Shown: piece after piece, positions 54,047 through 63,828 of the stretch | Layout of the letters: each line of letters begins with the position of its first letter | Numbering within the stretch: position 1 is the first letter of the stretch | Source: Candidatus Omnitrophota bacterium | GTDB taxonomy: Bacteria > Omnitrophota > Omnitrophia > Omnitrophales > JACROU01 | Reading direction: 5' to 3' | Assembly: GCA_029261035.1 (NCBI GenBank) | Contig: JAJDCD010000006.1 | Location: 1 to 64,000, forward strand | Length of the DNA: 64,000 bases | The notes under the pieces: generated by a model | What the model saw: only the letters and a program-made list of their open reading frames with translations | Told to the model about the DNA's origin: nothing | Databases searched by the model: none | Translations under genes and position numbers: made by a program

Positions 54047-54769
54047 ATGAGAACATCTAATCCAGCACTCAATAGTAAGGCCTTTCAAAATTTAACATCT
54101 ACTTCAGATCAGAAAATGACGATTCAAGGGACAATCAATAAGACTGCTTTGTCCTTATTTATCCTTATGGCTTCAGCAGCTTGGGTTTGGTCTAAAACAA
54201 CATCAGGGGTGATCCCGCCTGTTGTGTGGCTCGGAGCTTTGGGGGGCTTTGTAGTGGCTATTATTACGGTATTCAAAAAAGAGTGGGCGCCTATTACGAC
54301 TCCTATTTATGCCGCTCTAGAAGGATTGTTTTTAGGAGCTATTTCAGCAATATTTGAAATGCAGTTTCCTGGCATTGTGATCCAGGCTGTAGCGTTGACT
54401 TTCGGGACAATGTTTTCGTTACTTTTCATGTATCAAACACGTATCATAAAAGTGACCCAGAATTTTAGAATGGGTGTTTTTGCCGCAACAGGAGCTATCG
54501 CGTTATTTTATATAATGAGTATGGTTCTCGGTTTTTTTGGCATTCGAATTCCTTTTATCCATGAAGGTGGGCTGTTAGGTATTGGGTTTAGTCTTTTTGT
54601 CGTTACTATTGCGGCATTAAACCTTGTTTTGGATTTTGATTTTATTGAGCAAGCTTCTGAGGCAGGAGTTCCTAAGTATATGGAGTGGTATGGTGCGTTT
54701 GGGTTATTGGTTACTCTTGTTTGGTTGTATATTGAAATACTAAGGTTATTAGGGAAGTTGAGAAGGTAG
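54047..54769 (+). CDS. Bax inhibitor-1/YccA family membrane protein
   Basis: Predicted seven-segment inner-membrane protein of the BI-1-like family, subgroup with the N-terminus RTSNPALNSKAFQ. Segments include LSLFILMASAAWVW, AALEGLFLGAISAIFE and LGIGFSLFVVTIAALNLVLDFDFIEQA with the conserved DFDFIE and the C-terminal MEWYGAFGLLVTLVWLYIEILRLL. 240 residues. Strong AAGGAGGAAA ribosome-binding site. Role (ion leak or membrane protease control) is unproven. Confidence 0.87.
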   Translation: MRTSNPALNSKAFQNLTSTSDQKMTIQGTINKTALSLFILMASAAWVWSKTTSGVIPPVVWLGALGGFVVAIITVFKKEWAPITTPIYAALEGLFLGAISAIFEMQFPGIVIQAVALTFGTMFSLLFMYQTRIIKVTQNFRMGVFAATGAIALFYIMSMVLGFFGIRIPFIHEGGLLGIGFSLFVVTIAALNLVLDFDFIEQASEAGVPKYMEWYGAFGLLVTLVWLYIEILRLLGKLRR

Positions 54770-54843: not shown

Positions 54844-54876
54844 TAAGAAAATAGGACATCGAGCCCTATTTTCTTA
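54844..54876. terminator. 12-bp perfect hairpin, second terminator
   Basis: TAAGAAAATAGG (54844-54855) pairs exactly with CCTATTTTCTTA (54865-54876), loop 9 nt. The A/T-rich arms can give a U-tract on either strand. Confidence 0.5.
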
Positions 54877-54895: not shown

Positions 54896-54924
54896 TTGAC
54901 AATTCTTCTGCACTTTGTTATGTT
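54896..54924 (+). promoter_or_regulatory. Sigma70-type promoter of the pyr operon
   Basis: TTGACA at 54896-54901 (perfect -35), a 17-nt spacer and TATGTT at 54919-54924 with a TG at 54916-54917. The transcript would start near 54931, about 190 nt before pyrR. Confidence 0.75.
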
Positions 54925-54948
54925 TATGGATACGCATTAGTTAAATTT

Positions 54949-54981
54949 CCTTTTAAACTGGTTCTGTGAAGCCAGGAAAGG
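54949..54981 (+). promoter_or_regulatory. PyrR-binding hairpin (CNGNGA hexaloop) in the pyr leader
   Basis: The upper stem CTGGTT (54958-54963) pairs with AGCCAG (54970-54975) around the loop CTGTGA (54964-54969). This fits the CNGNGA hexaloop of PyrR-binding loops. A lower stem CCTTT/AAAGG (54949-54953 with 54977-54981) is separated by an asymmetric internal loop (TAAA against G), as in known PyrR sites. The consensus pairs are replaced by compensatory pairs. The lower 3' arm AAAGG is also the Shine-Dalgarno of the leader ORF. Confidence 0.68.
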
Positions 54982-54989
54982 TGAGGTAA

Positions 54990-55070
54990 ATGGTACAAAA
55001 TAAGAGTTTTATACAATATGGTTGTACGGATTTTAGTTTAGGGACGCCTGTTTCTCTTTATGAGGGATAG
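54990..55070 (+). CDS. Putative 26-residue pyr leader peptide
   Basis: An ATG-initiated ORF, beginning MVQNKSFIQYGCTDF, placed 8 nt after AAAGG (54977-54981). It crosses the 5' arm and loop of the downstream terminator and stops at 55068-55070 inside its 3' arm. I see no homology. The arrangement suggests that ribosomes on this ORF would prevent the terminator from forming. The ORF is short and could be chance. Confidence 0.42.
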   Translation: MVQNKSFIQYGCTDFSLGTPVSLYEG

Positions 55071-55081
55071 GCCTTTTTTTT
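55046..55081 (+). terminator. Attenuator terminator in the pyr leader
   Basis: GCCTGTTTCTC (55046-55056) pairs with GAGGGATAGGC (55062-55072) through 11 bp including G-U pairs, loop TTTAT, followed by a run of eight T (55074-55081). It lies between the promoter and pyrR, with no complete gene upstream in that transcript, so it acts as an attenuator. Confidence 0.8.
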
Positions 55082-55121
55082 GTCTGCTTATAACGAATAA
55101 CGTAGATTTTGAGGATAATTG

Positions 55122-55667
55122 ATGGAAACGGAAGTTATTAAGAAAATTTTGGATGCTGAGGGGATGGACCGGGTGATTACGCGTATTTCTCATGAGATTT
55201 TAGAGAAGAGTAAGGGAACTGAGAATCTGGTGATTGTGGGGATCGAAAGAGGTGGGGCTATTCTTGCAGAACGATTTCGCAAGAAAATTTCTCTAATAGA
55301 GAATGTAATTATTCCTAAGGGTTCGATTGATATCACTCTATATCGGGATGATATCGGGGAGGTAGGAACTCAACCTCTTATGAAAGGGACTCATTTAGAA
55401 TTTGATATATCAGGTAAGAAAGTTGTTTTGGTGGATGATGTTTTGTTTACAGGAAGAACGGTGCGTTCAGCTTTAGATGCTTTGGTGGATTTTGGTAGAC
55501 CTCAATGGGTGCGCTTAGCGGTTCTTTTAGACAGGGGGCATAGAGAGCTTCCTATTCGAGCAGATTATGTGGGTAAAAATATTCCAACAGCTTTAGAGGA
55601 AGAAGTGGTTGTTCACTTTGAAGAAAAAGATGCGATGGATGAAGTTTATGTCGCGAGGAAAAAATAG
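55122..55667 (+). CDS. pyrR: PyrR: pyr operon RNA-binding attenuation regulator / uracil phosphoribosyltransferase
   Basis: Binds UMP/UTP and the pyr leader RNA; family members also have UPRTase activity. [34 protein letters not shown] opens the PRT fold; the PRPP loop [21 protein letters not shown] is near residue 102; [20 protein letters not shown] is the PyrR signature. 181 residues, normal. I choose ATG 55122 with GAGGA upstream, not the adjacent TTG. The stop overlaps the pyrB GTG. Confidence 0.95.
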
Positions 55668-56653
55668 TGTTAGAAGGGAAGACAGACGTGGTTGAGGAAT
55701 TAACACCAAACAAATCAAATACACAGTGGACTAAAAAAGACTTGCTGGGTATAAAAGATTTATCTGCAGAAGAAATTGAGTTGGTTTTAGACACAGCAGC
55801 TTCATTGAGACAGGTCTCTGAGAGAAGCATTAAGAAAGTACCTACTCTTCGTGGCCGGACGGTTGTTAACTTTTTTATTGAGCCGAGTACACGAACTCGA
55901 GCATCCTTTGAGTTAGCTGAGAAACGGTTGAGTGCAGACACTTTAAATTTCTCTGGAGGTTCGAGTAGTTTAGTTAAAGGGGAAACGCTTAAAGATACGG
56001 CTAAAACAGTAGAAGCTTTACAAGTGGATTTGATTGTCATTCGGCATCCTTCTTCAGGAGCACCTCATCGTTTAAGTGAATATGTAAAACCTGGAATTAT
56101 TAATGCGGGTGATGGAATTAATGAGCATCCAACACAAGCTTTGTTAGATATGTATACACTGAGAGAGAAGAAGGGAAGACTTAAAGGTTTAAAGGTTTGT
56201 TTTATTGGAGATATTCTTCATAGCCGTGTGGCTCGTTCCAATATTTGGGGACTGACTAAGATGGGTGCTAAGGTGATGGTGGCGGGGCCAAAAATGTTGA
56301 TTCCTAAGGAGATTGAAAAAATGGGAGTCGAAGTCAGTTACGATGTCAAAAAAGCAGTTAAGGATGCGGATGCTATTAATTTACTTCGGATTCAATTAGA
56401 GCGCCAGAATGAACCGTTCTTTCCATCATTAAGAGAATATGCTCGATACTATGGTTTGAATTCGGATGTGATGAAAAATGCTAAGGAAGATGCGTTGATT
56501 ATGCATCCAGGACCAACGAACAGAGGAATCGAGTTGTCTTCAGAAGTTGCTGAAAGTAGCGGTTCTGTAATTTTAGAACAAGTAACGAATGGTTTAGCTG
56601 TTCGTATGGCTGTTTTGTATTTGCTAAGTATGTATAAGCCGGAAAATAAATAG
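55667..56653 (+). CDS. pyrB: Aspartate carbamoyltransferase catalytic subunit (GTG start)
   Basis: Condenses carbamoyl phosphate and aspartate. The carbamoyl-phosphate motif [17 protein letters not shown], the [11 protein letters not shown] motif and the C-terminal [11 protein letters not shown] are present. 328 residues; the first 25 or so are poorly conserved. GTG 55667 overlaps the pyrR stop. No pyrI is seen. Confidence 0.94.
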
Positions 56654-56666
56654 GTTGGAGTAAAAA

Positions 56667-57959
56667 ATGTCTATCTTAATAAAAAATGCACATGCTTTTG
56701 ATCCTCGAAATAATGTGGATGATATTTTGGATGTTGTTATTGATCGAGGTAAGGTGAAGCAAATAGGAAAGTCTTTAGATGTCTCTTGTGATGAAACTAT
56801 AGATGCAACAGGTAAGTATTTATTGCCGGGTTTTGTGGATTTGCATGTGCACTTTAGAGAGCCTGGGGATGAATACAAAGAAACGATTAAAACAGGAGCT
56901 ATGGCAGCTCTTCGTGGAGGGATTGTGGGTGCTGTAGCGATGCCTAACACAAGTCCTGCTACGGATAGTCAAGCTATTGTCGAATTTGTTTTAAAGCGTG
57001 CATCAGAAGCTAATTTTAACATTTTCCCTTGCGGAACCTTGTCAAAAGGGCGGGCTGGAAAAGATATTTCGGAAATGTCCGAGTTGAAAGAAGCGGGTTG
57101 TGTTGCTGTTAGTGATGATGGAAGCTATCTCAGCAATCCATTAGTTGCCCGACGGGCATTTGAATACGCTTCTTCTTTAGGGTTGATTGTCATGAGTCAT
57201 GCGGAAATTCCACAGCTTACCGTTGGTGGAGTTATGAATGAAGGTGAGACTTCTACACGTCTGGGGCTGAAAGGAAGTCCGGATATTGCAGAGTCCATGG
57301 CTGTTGCTTGTGATATTGAGCTAGCTAAATTGACAGGAGCGCACATTCATATCTGCCATATTTCTACAAAGAAAGCTTTAGAGAATTTAGTGAGAGCAAG
57401 AGAGCAAGGTGTTCACGCAACTTGCGAAGTAACGCCACATCATTTTGCTTTGACGGATACAAGAATTAAAAACTATGAGACTAACTTGAAGATGAATCCA
57501 CCCTTAAGAACAGATGAAGATAAACTGTTTATGATTGAAGGACTAAAAAAAGGGTATATCGATTGTATTGCAACAGATCATGCGCCACACTCTGAAGAAG
57601 AGAAAGATCGTGAATTTGAAAAAGCACCTGTGGGTGTTATTGGATTAGAAACGTCGTTTCCTGTAACAATGACAGAGCTCTATCACAAAGAGAAAATGTC
57701 TTTAGATCTAATCTTAGAAAAACTATCTTTAAATCCAACAAAGATGTTGGGGCTTCTAGATTTTAATGAAATTAAAGAGGGAAGTAAGGCGAACTTTGCA
57801 CTTGTTGATTTAGATGAAAAGTGGGTGGTTGCCGAAGACTTATTTTATTCTAAGTCGAGAAACTCGAGCTTTCTTGGCAAAGAAGTGCAAGGAAATGTTG
57901 TTGCAACGGTATGTAATGGAAAATTATATCAATGGGCTAAAGAGTTGGTCAAAGAATAG
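56667..57959 (+). CDS. pyrC: Dihydroorotase
   Basis: Zinc amidohydrolase cyclising carbamoyl aspartate. Class I pattern: LPGFVDLHVHFREPGDEYKETIKTGAMAALRGG, GAVAMPNTSPATDS, HICHISTKKAL, CEVTPHHFAL, and ATDHAPHSEEEK with the metal His/Asp. 430 residues, normal for class I. It follows pyrB by 13 nt. Confidence 0.95.
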   Translation: MSILIKNAHAFDPRNNVDDILDVVIDRGKVKQIGKSLDVSCDETIDATGKYLLPGFVDLHVHFREPGDEYKETIKTGAMAALRGGIVGAVAMPNTSPATDSQAIVEFVLKRASEANFNIFPCGTLSKGRAGKDISEMSELKEAGCVAVSDDGSYLSNPLVARRAFEYASSLGLIVMSHAEIPQLTVGGVMNEGETSTRLGLKGSPDIAESMAVACDIELAKLTGAHIHICHISTKKALENLVRAREQGVHATCEVTPHHFALTDTRIKNYETNLKMNPPLRTDEDKLFMIEGLKKGYIDCIATDHAPHSEEEKDREFEKAPVGVIGLETSFPVTMTELYHKEKMSLDLILEKLSLNPTKMLGLLDFNEIKEGSKANFALVDLDEKWVVAEDLFYSKSRNSSFLGKEVQGNVVATVCNGKLYQWAKELVKE

Positions 57960-58023: not shown

Positions 58024-59169
58024 ATGAAACGAGCAATGTTAGTACTTGAAGATGGGTTGGTTTTTGAAGGAGAATCCTTTGGTGCTGAAGGGGAAGTCTT
58101 TGGGGAAGTTGTTTTTAACACTTCGATGGTAGGTTACCAAGAAATTTTAACGGACCCTTCTTACAAGCGTCAAATTGTTGTGATGACTTATCCTTTGATT
58201 GGAAACTATGGAGTTAATTATGATGATGTGGAGTCTTCTATTCCTCAGGTTGAGGGTTTTGTGATTAAAGAGCTTAGCCCTGTGGTTAGTAATTATCGCT
58301 CTAAACAATCGTTAGGGGAGTATTTGTATGACAATGCTGTCCCTGGAATTCAAGGAATTGACACTCGGAAATTAGTAACCCATTTAAGAGATAATGGGGT
58401 TAAGCGAGGGGTTATATCAACCATAGATTTAGATGCGGATAGTTTATTGCAAAAAGTTATTAACTCGCCTGAAATGACAGGGAGAGATTTGGTTAAAGAA
58501 GTTACAACATTTGAGTCTTATCAGTTTGATGAGACCTTGCTGCCGGAATTTACCTGGCCTCTTCTAGAGCTGAAAAAAAGAGAGGTTTTTAATATTGTTT
58601 GTATCGACTCTGGGATAAAGAGAAATATCTTAAGAAAATTAAACCAACATGGTTTTAAAGTTACTGTAGTTTCTGCAACAGATACTTACGAAGATATTAT
58701 GTCTAAAAATCCAGATGGTGTGTTTCTATCAAATGGTCCAGGGGACCCAGCTGCTTGTGATTACCTTGTTGAAACGGTTAAGCAACTTATAGGAAAAGTT
58801 CCGATTTTTGGTATTTGTTTAGGGCATCAAATACTTGCTTTGGCTTTAGGGGGGCAAACTTACAAACTGAAATTTGGTCATCGGGGAGCAAATCATCCTG
58901 TCATGGATTTAGAAACAAGAAAAGTTGAAATCACTGCTCAAAATCATGGTTTTTGTGTGGATGTTGATTCTCTTGATAGCAAAGATATCGAAGTGACGCA
59001 TATTAATTTGAATGACAAAACTTGTGAGGGTTTTCGACATAAACGACACCCTCTTTTTTCGGTTCAATATCACCCAGAAAGTTCTCCAGGACCTCACGAT
59101 AGTGATTATTTATTTGAACGTTTTCATCAACTGATTAAAAACAATCAAGCATCAGGACAAAAAGTTTAA
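58024..59169 (+). CDS. carA: Carbamoyl-phosphate synthase small subunit
   Basis: Glutaminase subunit. AMLVLEDGLVFEGESFGAEG and VFNTSMVGYQEILTDPSY lead; the glutamine amidotransferase domain has GPGDPAACDYL, catalytic Cys in GICLGHQILALALGG, and His/Glu in QYHPESSPGPHDSDYLF. I choose ATG 58024 with AAAGGG upstream (381 residues); earlier in-frame starts at 57997 (TTG) and 58003 are less likely. Confidence 0.95.
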   Translation: MKRAMLVLEDGLVFEGESFGAEGEVFGEVVFNTSMVGYQEILTDPSYKRQIVVMTYPLIGNYGVNYDDVESSIPQVEGFVIKELSPVVSNYRSKQSLGEYLYDNAVPGIQGIDTRKLVTHLRDNGVKRGVISTIDLDADSLLQKVINSPEMTGRDLVKEVTTFESYQFDETLLPEFTWPLLELKKREVFNIVCIDSGIKRNILRKLNQHGFKVTVVSATDTYEDIMSKNPDGVFLSNGPGDPAACDYLVETVKQLIGKVPIFGICLGHQILALALGGQTYKLKFGHRGANHPVMDLETRKVEITAQNHGFCVDVDSLDSKDIEVTHINLNDKTCEGFRHKRHPLFSVQYHPESSPGPHDSDYLFERFHQLIKNNQASGQKV

Positions 59170-59211: not shown

Positions 59212-62200
59212 ATGCCTAAAAGAACAGACATAAAAAAAATACTTATTATTGGGTCGGGCCCCATTATTATTGGGCAAGGTTGCGAATTTGATTATTCGGG
59301 GACGCAAGCTTGTAAGGCTTTGAAGGAAGATGGTTATGAAATTGTTTTGATTAATTCAAACCCTGCAACGATTATGACTGATCCAAATATTGCGGATCAA
59401 ACCTATATAGAGCCTGTGACTGTTGAATTTTTAGAGAAAGTGATCGAAAAAGAACGTCCTCAAGCTTGTTTGCCTACGATGGGTGGTCAAACGGGTTTAA
59501 ACATTGCCATTGAAGCATGTGATAAAGGGATTTTTGAAAAGTATGGCGTAGAACTTATTGGTGCTGATTATAACGCGATCAAAAAGGCGGAGAATCGAGA
59601 AGAATTTAAAGCCGCTATGAAGAAAATTGGTCTTGATTTGCCTCAAAGTGATTTTGCATACACGGTTGAAGAAGCCGAGGCTGTTGCGGACAAACTTGGT
59701 TATCCAATTGTGGTGAGGCCTAGTTTTACATTAGCGGGTTCTGGAAGTGGTATTTGTTTTAATCGGGATGAGCTGCTTAAAGTAGCGCGTCTCGGTTTGG
59801 AATACAGTATAACCACAGAAGTTTTAATTGAAGAATCGGTTATTGGTTGGAAAGAGTATGAGTTTGAAGTAATGCGGGACACGAAAGATAATGTGGTGAT
59901 TATTTGTTCTATTGAAAATTTAGATCCAATGGGAGTGCATACAGGGGATTCTATAACGGTGGCACCTGCGCAGACTTTAACGGATAAAGAGTATCAAAGA
60001 ATGAGGGATGCTTCTCTTGCTGTTATCCGAGAAATTGGGGTAGATACTGGAGGGTCAAATGTTCAGTTTGCTGTAAATCCTAAAGATGGACGTATGGTGG
60101 TAATTGAGATGAATCCGAGAGTCTCTCGTTCAAGTGCATTAGCGTCAAAGGCTACAGGATTTCCAATTGCTAAGTTTGCTGCCAAGCTAGCTGTGGGATA
60201 TTCACTGGATGAAATTTCTAATGACATTACTCGTTATACTCCAGCTTCTTTTGAACCATCCATTGATTACTGCGTTGTTAAAATTCCGAGATTTGCTTTT
60301 GAGAAATTTGAGGGAGTGGATGATACTCTTTCGACCCAAATGAAATCTGTAGGAGAAGCGATGTCCATAGGGAGGACATTTAAAGAGGCCTTTCAAAAAG
60401 GATTGCGCAGTTTGGAAATTAAACGTTTTGGGTTTGGAGGTGACGGTTATGATGAATTCTTTGGTGAAAAGCTTAATACAAAAGAAAAGTTAGTTCAATT
60501 TATTCAGAAAGCTAAAACCGATGAACATATTAAAGAAAAGATAATGCATTATATTTCTAAGCCAAAGGCAGATAGGCTTTTTTATTTGAAGTTTGCTTTT
60601 TATGCGGGTTTTACTTCAGAAGAAATAAATAAAGTTTGTTTTATAGATCTGTGGTTTTTAGAGAATATGCGTCAGATTGTTGATTTGGAAATGGAATTAC
60701 TTCATATTTCTGAAACGAAGCATGATTCAAGTTCTAGAGTTGTTTTGGGAAATCAAAGTGCTCTAAAAAATATAGATCTCTACTTATTGCGAAAAGCGAA
60801 ACAGTATGGGTTTTCTGATAAACAATTAGCCTTTTATTTTGATACAACAGAATCAAAAGTAAGAAAGTTTCGCGAAAAAAGCAATGTAACACCCGTATAT
60901 AAGCTTGTGGATACTTGTGCTGCTGAATTTAAAGCATATACACCTTATTTTTACTCAACGTATGAAGATGAACATGATGTAACACCGACACAGAACAAGA
61001 AAATTATGATTCTGGGTGGAGGGCCGAACCGTATTGGTCAGGGTATTGAATTTGACTATTGTTGTGTTCAAGCAGCGTTTGCTTTTAAAGAAATGGGTTT
61101 TGAAACAATTATGGTGAACTCGAACCCAGAAACTGTGAGTACCGATTATGATACATCAGACAAACTTTATTTCGAGCCATTAACCTTTGAGGATGTTCTT
61201 AATATTGTGCAGTTTGAAAAACCTCTGGGTGTGATCGTTCAATTAGGAGGTCAGACACCTTTAAATATCAGCAATGAACTAGAAAAAAATGGAGTTAAGA
61301 TTCTAGGAACTTCGGTAGCCTCTATTGATATGGCTGAAGATAGAAATAAGTTTAAGAAGTTACTCCATCGCATTAATTTAAAACAGCCAGCAAATGATAT
61401 TGTGTATACAGAAAAGGAGGCAATAAGAGCAGCCAATGAAATTGGATATCCCGTAGTTGTCCGACCTTCCTATGTTTTGGGTGGGCGAGCTATGGAAATT
61501 GCTTATGATGAAGACTTCTTGGTAAAGTATATGAAAACAGCCGTAAGTTTGAGTGATGAGCAACCTGTTTTAATTGATAAGTTTTTAGAAAATGCTTCTG
61601 AGGTTGATGTGGATATGATAGCTGATGGAACTATAGGTGTTGTTGGCGGAATTATGGAGCACGTTGAAGAGGCTGGGATTCATTCTGGGGACAGTGCTTG
61701 TGTGATTCCTCCTTACTCTTTATCTCCAGCCATTAAAAGTGAATTGAGAGATAAGACAGAGCAGTTAGCAAAAGAACTTAAAGTTAAAGGGTTGATGAAT
61801 GTTCAGTATGCCATTCAGAATGATGATATCTATTGTTTAGAAGTAAACCCTCGCGCGAGCCGAACTATTCCTTTTGTAAGTAAAGCAATAGGGGTTCCTC
61901 TTGCTAAATTGGCAGCAAAAGTTATGGCGGGAGCAAAACTTAAGGAGCTAGGTTTTGAAGAGCAAGTTCATCCAAAACATTTTTCTGTGAAAGAATCTGT
62001 GTTTCCATTTATTAAGTTTCCAGGGGTTGATATTATTTTGTCTCCAGAAATGAAGTCGACGGGAGAAGTGATGGGGATTGATGAAGATTTTGGAAGCGCA
62101 TTTTACAAATCACAGGATGCGGCTTCTGCTCAGTTGCCATCCAGCGGAACCGTATTTGTCAGTGTGAAGGACTCGGATAAATCTCGTATTCTACCGATTG

Positions 62201-62571
62201 CAAAAAGACTTCATGAAATGGGTTTTAATATTATTTCTACTAAAGGAACAGCGTCCTTTTTATCCGAAGCGAATGTGCCTGTAGAACCTGTTTTGAAGAT
62301 AGCAGAAGGGCGACCTAATATTGCGGATTTTATTAGAAACAGTACAGTTAATTTAATTATTAATACACCGAATGGAAAAGGTCCTATGTTGGACGAGGCT
62401 AAAATTCGTTCTTTGGCTGTTTCTTTTCAGGTGCCTTGTATTACAACAGTTCAAGCTGCAGAATGTGCTGTTATGGGAATTAAAGCAAAGCAAGAAAAGG
62501 GATTTAAAGTACAGAGTTTGCAAGAGTATCATTTGAATAAGAACGCTGAAAAGGCGTCTATTTCCTTATAA
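59212..62571 (+). CDS. carB: Carbamoyl-phosphate synthase large subunit
   Basis: ATP-dependent synthesis of carbamoyl phosphate from ammonia and bicarbonate. The two homologous halves start with [33 protein letters not shown] and [36 protein letters not shown]-grasp segments include [12 protein letters not shown] and [12 protein letters not shown]. The C-terminal allosteric domain begins near residue 975 ([27 protein letters not shown]). 1,119 residues, slightly longer than the usual 1,070. Single continuous frame. Confidence 0.96.
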
Positions 62572-63045: not shown

Positions 63046-63828
63046 ATGTTTGATTTATTGGTTAAGGTCAAAGACAATAAAAAAATATCTCCAGATTTAT
63101 GGGTGCTTAGCTTTGATTCGGAAAAGCTAGCTCAAACAATTGTTCCTGGTCAATTTTTAGAATTTAAAGTTAGAAACTCTACAGATCCTTTCTTAAGACG
63201 TCCTTTCAGTGTTTATAAGATTAAAAATAATACCATCGAGATTTTGTATGAAGTTGTGGGTGAGGGAACTCACCTTATGTCTGAATTGCAACCCGGCGAC
63301 ACGTTTTTATCTTTAGGGCCTCTGGGGACCACATTTACTCCACAAAAAAATAAAAAAGTTATTATGGTCGGTGGTGGTGTGGGGGCTGCTCCGTTGGTGT
63401 TTTTAGCGCAAAAACAGGACTTTGATTCGATGATGTTGGGTTTTCGAGGAGAGTCTGCTGTTCTCCCATTGTCGGAAGCGATTGGAGACGATAATAAGTG
63501 GGTCTATGCAACGAATGATGGGTCCGTAGGTCACAAAGGGTTTATCACACAACCCTTGGAAGAACTATTTAAACAAGAAGATTCTCCTGAAAATTTGTTT
63601 ATTTATTCTTGTGGCCCTAACCCCATGTTGTTAGAAGTAGCACGTATATGCCAACAGTACGGAGTGGATGGAGAAGTTTCTTTAGAAGAACGTATGGGCT
63701 GTGGTGTTGGAGCTTGTTTAGGGTGTGCTGTGTTAACAAAGTCAAAAGGGTATGTACCATCCTGTAAATATGGGCCTGTTTTTAATATTCAAGATTTAGA
63801 ATTAGATGAATTGAAGAATAGCGGATAG
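63046..63828 (+). CDS. pyrK: Dihydroorotate dehydrogenase electron transfer subunit
   Basis: Carries electrons from PyrD to NAD+ using FAD and a 2Fe-2S cluster. FLRRPFSVYKI binds FAD, VGGGVGAAPLVFLAQ is the NAD-binding glycine loop, and ERMGCGVGACLGCAVLTKSKGYVPSCKYGPVF holds four cluster cysteines near residues 218-240. 260 residues, normal. Its last three codons run into the adjacent repeat element. Confidence 0.93.
   Translation: MFDLLVKVKDNKKISPDLWVLSFDSEKLAQTIVPGQFLEFKVRNSTDPFLRRPFSVYKIKNNTIEILYEVVGEGTHLMSELQPGDTFLSLGPLGTTFTPQKNKKVIMVGGGVGAAPLVFLAQKQDFDSMMLGFRGESAVLPLSEAIGDDNKWVYATNDGSVGHKGFITQPLEELFKQEDSPENLFIYSCGPNPMLLEVARICQQYGVDGEVSLEERMGCGVGACLGCAVLTKSKGYVPSCKYGPVFNIQDLELDELKNSG

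Follow-up and report, generated by a model that had tools for sequence, protein, structure and literature searches.

The pyr operon of this Candidatus Omnitrophota bacterium is preceded by a leader that most likely acts as a PyrR-gated, ribosome-dependent attenuator, a reading to which we assign a probability of about 0.78 on the strength of sequence comparison. A translating ribosome, and not an RNA antiterminator, would then probably decide whether the operon is transcribed. The anatomy of the leader, its conservation, the open frame of its ORF and the lack of a detectable antiterminator in the leaders compared are read directly from the sequences. The features of the window, i.e. the whole 64,000-nucleotide stretch that was analysed, are as follows.

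54896..54924, + strand: sigma-70 promoter of the pyr operon, TTGACA-17 nt-TATGTT with an extended -10 (TG), from a promoter scan
54949..54981, + strand: predicted PyrR-binding hairpin, from an RF00515 alignment (53.9 bits) and covariation
54977..54981, + strand: AAAGG, Shine-Dalgarno sequence of the leader ORF, paired in the lower stem (3' arm) of the hairpin
54990..55070, + strand: leader ORF of 26 codons, MVQNKSFIQYGCTDFSLGTPVSLYEG, an open reading frame that is conserved as open
55046..55081, + strand: intrinsic terminator (attenuator) with an 11-bp stem at 55046-55072 and a U-tract to 55081, from a terminator scan (-15.4 kcal/mol)
55122..55667, + strand: pyrR, bifunctional pyr operon regulator / uracil phosphoribosyltransferase (NF003549, 236 bits)
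55667..56653, + strand: pyrB, aspartate carbamoyltransferase (NF002032)
56667..57959, + strand: pyrC, dihydroorotase (TIGR00857)
58024..59169, + strand: carA, carbamoyl-phosphate synthase small subunit (TIGR01368)
59212..62571, + strand: carB, carbamoyl-phosphate synthase large subunit (NF003671)
63046..63828, + strand: pyrK-like dihydroorotate dehydrogenase electron-transfer subunit (best match NF000798 at 172.9 bits, under the cut-off of 219)

Each element named in the first-pass annotation, i.e. a consensus promoter, a hairpin with a CTGTGA loop, AAAGG, an ORF and an overlapping terminator, was found in the window. The genes following the leader are arranged as pyrR-pyrB-pyrC-carA-carB-pyrK, with pyrR starting 140 nt 3' of the PyrR hairpin and the leader ORF ending 51 nt 5' of pyrR. 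The ORF begins with the ATG at 54990, 8 nt past AAAGG, and its TAG stop codon is located within the 3' arm of the terminator. Transcription is expected to start near 54931. The promoter scan is weak alone, with 1 promoter-like site found where chance would give 1.2 in the region; a promoter lies at the equivalent place in 44 of the 49 Omnitrophota leaders of our first set, described below. The terminator scan of the window leader returned 1 terminator against 0.3 expected by chance.

Immediately 5' of the pyr promoter lies a perfect inverted repeat (54845-54855 / 54865-54875, AAGAAAATAGG / CCTATTTTCTT), which is probably the terminator of the gene at 54047-54769. In several other Omnitrophota, the upstream neighbor of the pyr promoter is rnpB, the class A RNase P RNA (L007 805-1283, L011 759-1262, L016 772-1285, L025 687-1228, L030 931-1276); no rnpB was found upstream of the pyr promoter in the window.

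The hairpin of the window is composed of a lower stem CCTTTT/GAAAGG, an AAA bulge, an upper stem CTGGTT/AGCCAG and the loop CTGTGA (CNGNGA) at 54964-54969. Located upstream of pyrR, with a CNGNGA hexaloop and a purine bulge on the 5' side of its stem, it has the sequence characters expected of a PyrR-binding hairpin. RF00515 (PyrR) aligns to 54945-55081 with 53.9 bits, 0.1 under the gathering threshold of 54.0 (E 7e-7 on a 351-base stretch). Across the Omnitrophota leaders the C, G and GA of CNGNGA are invariant, and the upper stem covaries: all 6 of its pairs are changed on both sides, with 41 such cells against 12.8 in shuffled alignments (0/500 shuffles). No convincing second PyrR site was found in the same genome.

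The 3' end of the 16S rRNA of the same genome (CCTCCTTT; GGATCACCTCCTTT) is complementary to AAAGG. Since AARGG is part of our hairpin search pattern and is carried by Bacillota as well, its conservation alone is no evidence for a Shine-Dalgarno sequence. Folding of the leaders gives a mean hairpin energy of -9.9 kcal/mol, with a cost of only ~2.6 kcal/mol for freeing AARGG alone. In equilibrium folds without PyrR, the accessibility of the Shine-Dalgarno sequence is nevertheless low (mean 0.10-0.19), because the hairpin is fairly stable even by itself (-10 kcal/mol). The window is an exception, in that its hairpin is predicted to open and free the Shine-Dalgarno sequence at some transcript lengths, ~55045 and ~55075. 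The rearrangement at ~55045 was considered as an anti-sequestor and was dropped from the general mechanism, most relatives having no such opening.

The evidence for the leader ORF comes from two sets of genomes. The first comprises 49 hairpin-bearing leaders upstream of pyrR, from relatives and named Omnitrophota records, the window included. The start codon was taken as the first ATG at +4 to +14 past AARGG, else GTG, else TTG, with the frame ignored in the choice. By this rule every leader of the first set has a start codon (40 ATG, 8 GTG, 1 TTG) with a spacer of 5-11 nt, most often 7; shuffled leaders have a mean of 9.6 ATG at +4..+14, with a maximum of 16 in 300 shuffles, against the 40 observed. 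A terminator is likewise present in 49/49. The ORF frame is open to the 5' arm of the terminator in all 49 leaders, against 30 and 24 for the +1 and +2 frames, and through the entire terminator hairpin in 42, against 17 and 17. Of the 49 ORFs, 23 continue with AAA or AAG directly after the start codon, resembling efficiently started genes.

The second set of 80 further genomes, mostly from other Omnitrophota families, was scored by the same rules and shares no exact duplicates with the first. The PyrR hairpin is present in 78 of the 80, and a terminator was scored in 73 of these 78. Of the five leaders lacking a terminator by rule, four show by eye an ORF and, after it, a terminator-like stem whose U-tract is interrupted or shifted; in the fifth the hairpin adjoins pyrR. 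A start codon was found in all 73 terminator-bearing leaders, ATG in 69 of them, and in 71 no stop codon precedes the 5' arm, against 28 and 39 for the other frames (binomial p about 1e-13 and 1e-21, values that ignore shared descent and serve as a guide only); in both exceptions the ORF stops 8-9 nt short of the 5' arm. The ORFs extend through the whole terminator hairpin in 56/73, against 16 and 24 in the other frames. The ORF start, the Shine-Dalgarno sequence within the hairpin, the open frame into the terminator and the order hairpin-ORF-terminator are kept throughout the phylum, as had been anticipated from the window. Two Omnitrophota (L044, L045) with divergent PyrR proteins (44-47% identity) lack the hairpin upstream of the gene; pyrR of L044 seems to overlap its preceding neighbor.

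Two further expectations of the first-pass annotation did not hold, i.e. that a stop codon would be conserved inside the terminator and that the ORF would vary synonymously. The stop is located inside the terminator hairpin in only 7/49 leaders, the 42 others reading through it. A synonymous-change signature is absent and the peptide sequence is not conserved; inspection by eye of the translated leaders of both sets revealed neither a conserved peptide nor a regulatory codon run. The 5' arm of the terminator mostly begins 24-37 nt past the start codon in the first set, compared with 20-34 nt in the second; the 56 nt of the window are the longest of the first set.

To what extent the RNA itself could provide the switch was evaluated by pairing the 5' arm of the terminator with all upstream RNA, using RNA-RNA duplex energies and mononucleotide shuffles. 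No antiterminator is detectable in the first set (mean z +0.38, 0/49 below -2) or in the second (mean z -0.01, 4/73 below -2), and the best upstream pairing of the 5' arm reaches -7 to -8 kcal/mol, against about -15 to -16 for the terminators. The same test detects the antiterminator pairing in Bacillota controls (mean z -1.38, -12.7 against -15.5 kcal/mol for the terminators), whereas other non-Bacillota phyla resemble Omnitrophota (mean z -0.08). A switch of the Bacillus type, in which the PyrR hairpin is an anti-antiterminator, an antiterminator including the terminator 5' arm forms without PyrR, and the ORF is incidental, is very unlikely in the light of these values. The hairpin does probably belong to the same family (RF00515), and the equilibrium fold of the window pairs the 5' arm of the hairpin with the region before the terminator. 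However, this alternative pairing is no antiterminator, because it leaves the terminator intact, and no pairing mutually exclusive with the terminator was found in the Omnitrophota leaders. The open frame in 49/49 would also be left unexplained.

Repression of translation only, as in mycobacteria, would have PyrR block a leader ORF that is coupled to pyrR, with the terminator being constitutive or independently regulated. The positions of the ORF ends are consistent with such coupling, since 36/49 are no more than 25 nt away from where pyrR begins, many of them overlapping it as ATGA, against 4 and 11 in the other frames (first set; the pyrR starts of relatives were placed from the alignment and are approximate). 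In addition, Actinobacteria and some deltas among the matches listed carry the hairpin at the pyrR start with no terminator. We regard this explanation as unlikely on account of the terminators found in 49/49 and 73/78 leaders, and of the narrow distance between start codon and 5' arm, which coupling alone would not need. In the window itself the hairpin does not sequester the ribosome-binding site of pyrR, and coupling is unlikely because the ORF ends 51 nt before that gene. Control of the E. coli pyrBI type, where the UTP-dependent speed of the polymerase would determine how it is coupled to the leader ribosome, with a minor part for the CNGNGA hairpin, has in its favor that the leader ORF overlaps the terminator as in pyrL (PMC5021804). 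It seems highly improbable, since the leaders inspected by eye show no consistent U-rich tract before the terminators, and pyrR accompanied by a covarying PyrR hairpin occurs throughout.

For PyrR-gated attenuation by a leader ribosome, we envisage the following course of events. When UMP is plentiful, PyrR-UMP bound to the CNGNGA hairpin would clamp its lower stem and hide AAAGG, so that the leader ORF would stay untranslated, the terminator would fold and RNA polymerase would halt before pyrR. Under low UMP, PyrR would depart, and the weak lower stem (~2.6 kcal/mol to free AARGG) may let a ribosome load. With the 5' arm lying mostly 24-37 nt past the start codon, translation of a few codons would suffice for the ribosome to cover it, and transcription could proceed into the operon. 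The peptide would have no role, the ORF serving as a ribosome track; in the many relatives whose ORFs cross the terminator and reach the start of pyrR, translational coupling to pyrR may be added. For the Omnitrophota leaders, we infer the binding of PyrR and UMP, the translation of the ORF, its effect on termination and the kinetics from sequence. The sequence of events originally proposed, from the hidden Shine-Dalgarno sequence to the untranslated ORF and the terminator, with ribosomes blocking the terminator when PyrR is absent, is supported by evidence of a comparative kind. The timing presents a difficulty: the ribosome would have to load within roughly 60-100 nt, from exposure of the start codon to completion of the terminator. 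At the general polymerase rate this corresponds to ~1-2 s, unless the polymerase pauses.

The arrangement is also seen in other phyla, for which hairpin matches were listed from a genome-wide scan with no ORF condition. Among the matches listed, an ORF following AAAGG reaches the terminator in 28 of the 34 terminator-bearing leaders that are neither Bacillota nor Omnitrophota (Smithella, Syntrophaceae, Geobacter, other deltas, Zixibacteria, Methylomirabilota and others), and in 7/22 Bacillota leaders, or 2/22 counting ATG only, which is near chance. Comparison of the 49/49 in Omnitrophota, the 28/34 in others and the 7/22 in Bacillota gives Fisher values of 2e-10 and 2e-4, again among the matches listed. 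In six of the listed genomes, from Actinobacteria, one myxococcal genome and some deltas (L067, L089, L092, L100, L115, L123), the hairpin sits on or just ahead of the start of pyrR and a terminator is absent, which is the mycobacterial layout. Four Zixibacteria (L084, L094, L114, L116) have a PyrR hairpin and no detectable terminator; in L094, L114 and L116 at least, the leader ORF ends near pyrR, and perhaps these leaders operate by translational coupling only. In four Poribacteria (L072, L077, L102, L105) the hairpin and terminator are present, and another gene seems to sit between the leader and pyrR because the latter is only found 730-835 nt downstream.

It is about an even chance, in our estimation, that the whole phylum and several others use PyrR-gated leader-ORF attenuation as their standard pyr control, with the ORF often being dual, i.e. 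a terminator-blocking track and a bridge to pyrR, so that one PyrR binding event would act on operon transcription and pyrR translation. If the mechanism holds, it would constitute a third mode of PyrR action that joins the two well-known ones, the Bacillus antiterminator switch and mycobacterial blocking of the ribosome-binding site; it has reportedly been proposed for one organism, and it would be ordinary in Omnitrophota and probably also occur in many delta-proteobacterial, Zixibacteria and Methylomirabilota genomes. A hairpin on the pyrR start, a hairpin on a leader ORF and a hairpin with an antiterminator would form a natural series for attenuator evolution, and for uncultured phyla the leader may serve as a simple reporter of how transcription and translation are coupled.

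The suggestion that the combination may be undescribed was too strong. Van de Casteele et al. reportedly proposed in 1997 for Thermus ZO5, where pyrR is said to be first in the operon, that PyrR acts on leader translation, with a translating ribosome instead of an antiterminator, and the 2008 review of Turnbough and Switzer is said to have touched on PyrR combined with leader translation. Our literature search found no other description of PyrR with leader-ORF attenuation. The new information would therefore be the broad distribution of a previously proposed mechanism, which the sequence comparison appears to support well.

The leaders share the CNGNGA loop, the CCUUUU/AAAGG stem and the intrinsic terminator before the genes with Bacillus subtilis pyr; they differ from its anti-antiterminator in having no detectable antiterminator and in having a conserved leader ORF that Bacillota lack. 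In Mycobacterium smegmatis, PyrR represses translation at the ribosome-binding site. The likeness lies in a Shine-Dalgarno sequence held in the 3' arm of the hairpin, whereas the site hidden in the window is that of the leader ORF, not of pyrR, and an attenuator follows. As in E. coli pyrBI, where the advancing ribosome on pyrL suppresses an intrinsic terminator, a leader ORF overlaps a terminator so that its translation would prevent termination (PMC5021804). The signal in pyrBI is UTP-dependent polymerase pausing, with no PyrR. The model reportedly proposed for Thermus ZO5 fits the Omnitrophota leaders: the PyrR site covers the ribosome-binding site of a leader ORF, the ORF overlaps the terminator, and there is no antiterminator. 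Relative to Thermus ZO5, the present leaders belong to another phylum, ~120 of them were compared, and many of their ORFs continue past the terminator as far as the start of pyrR.
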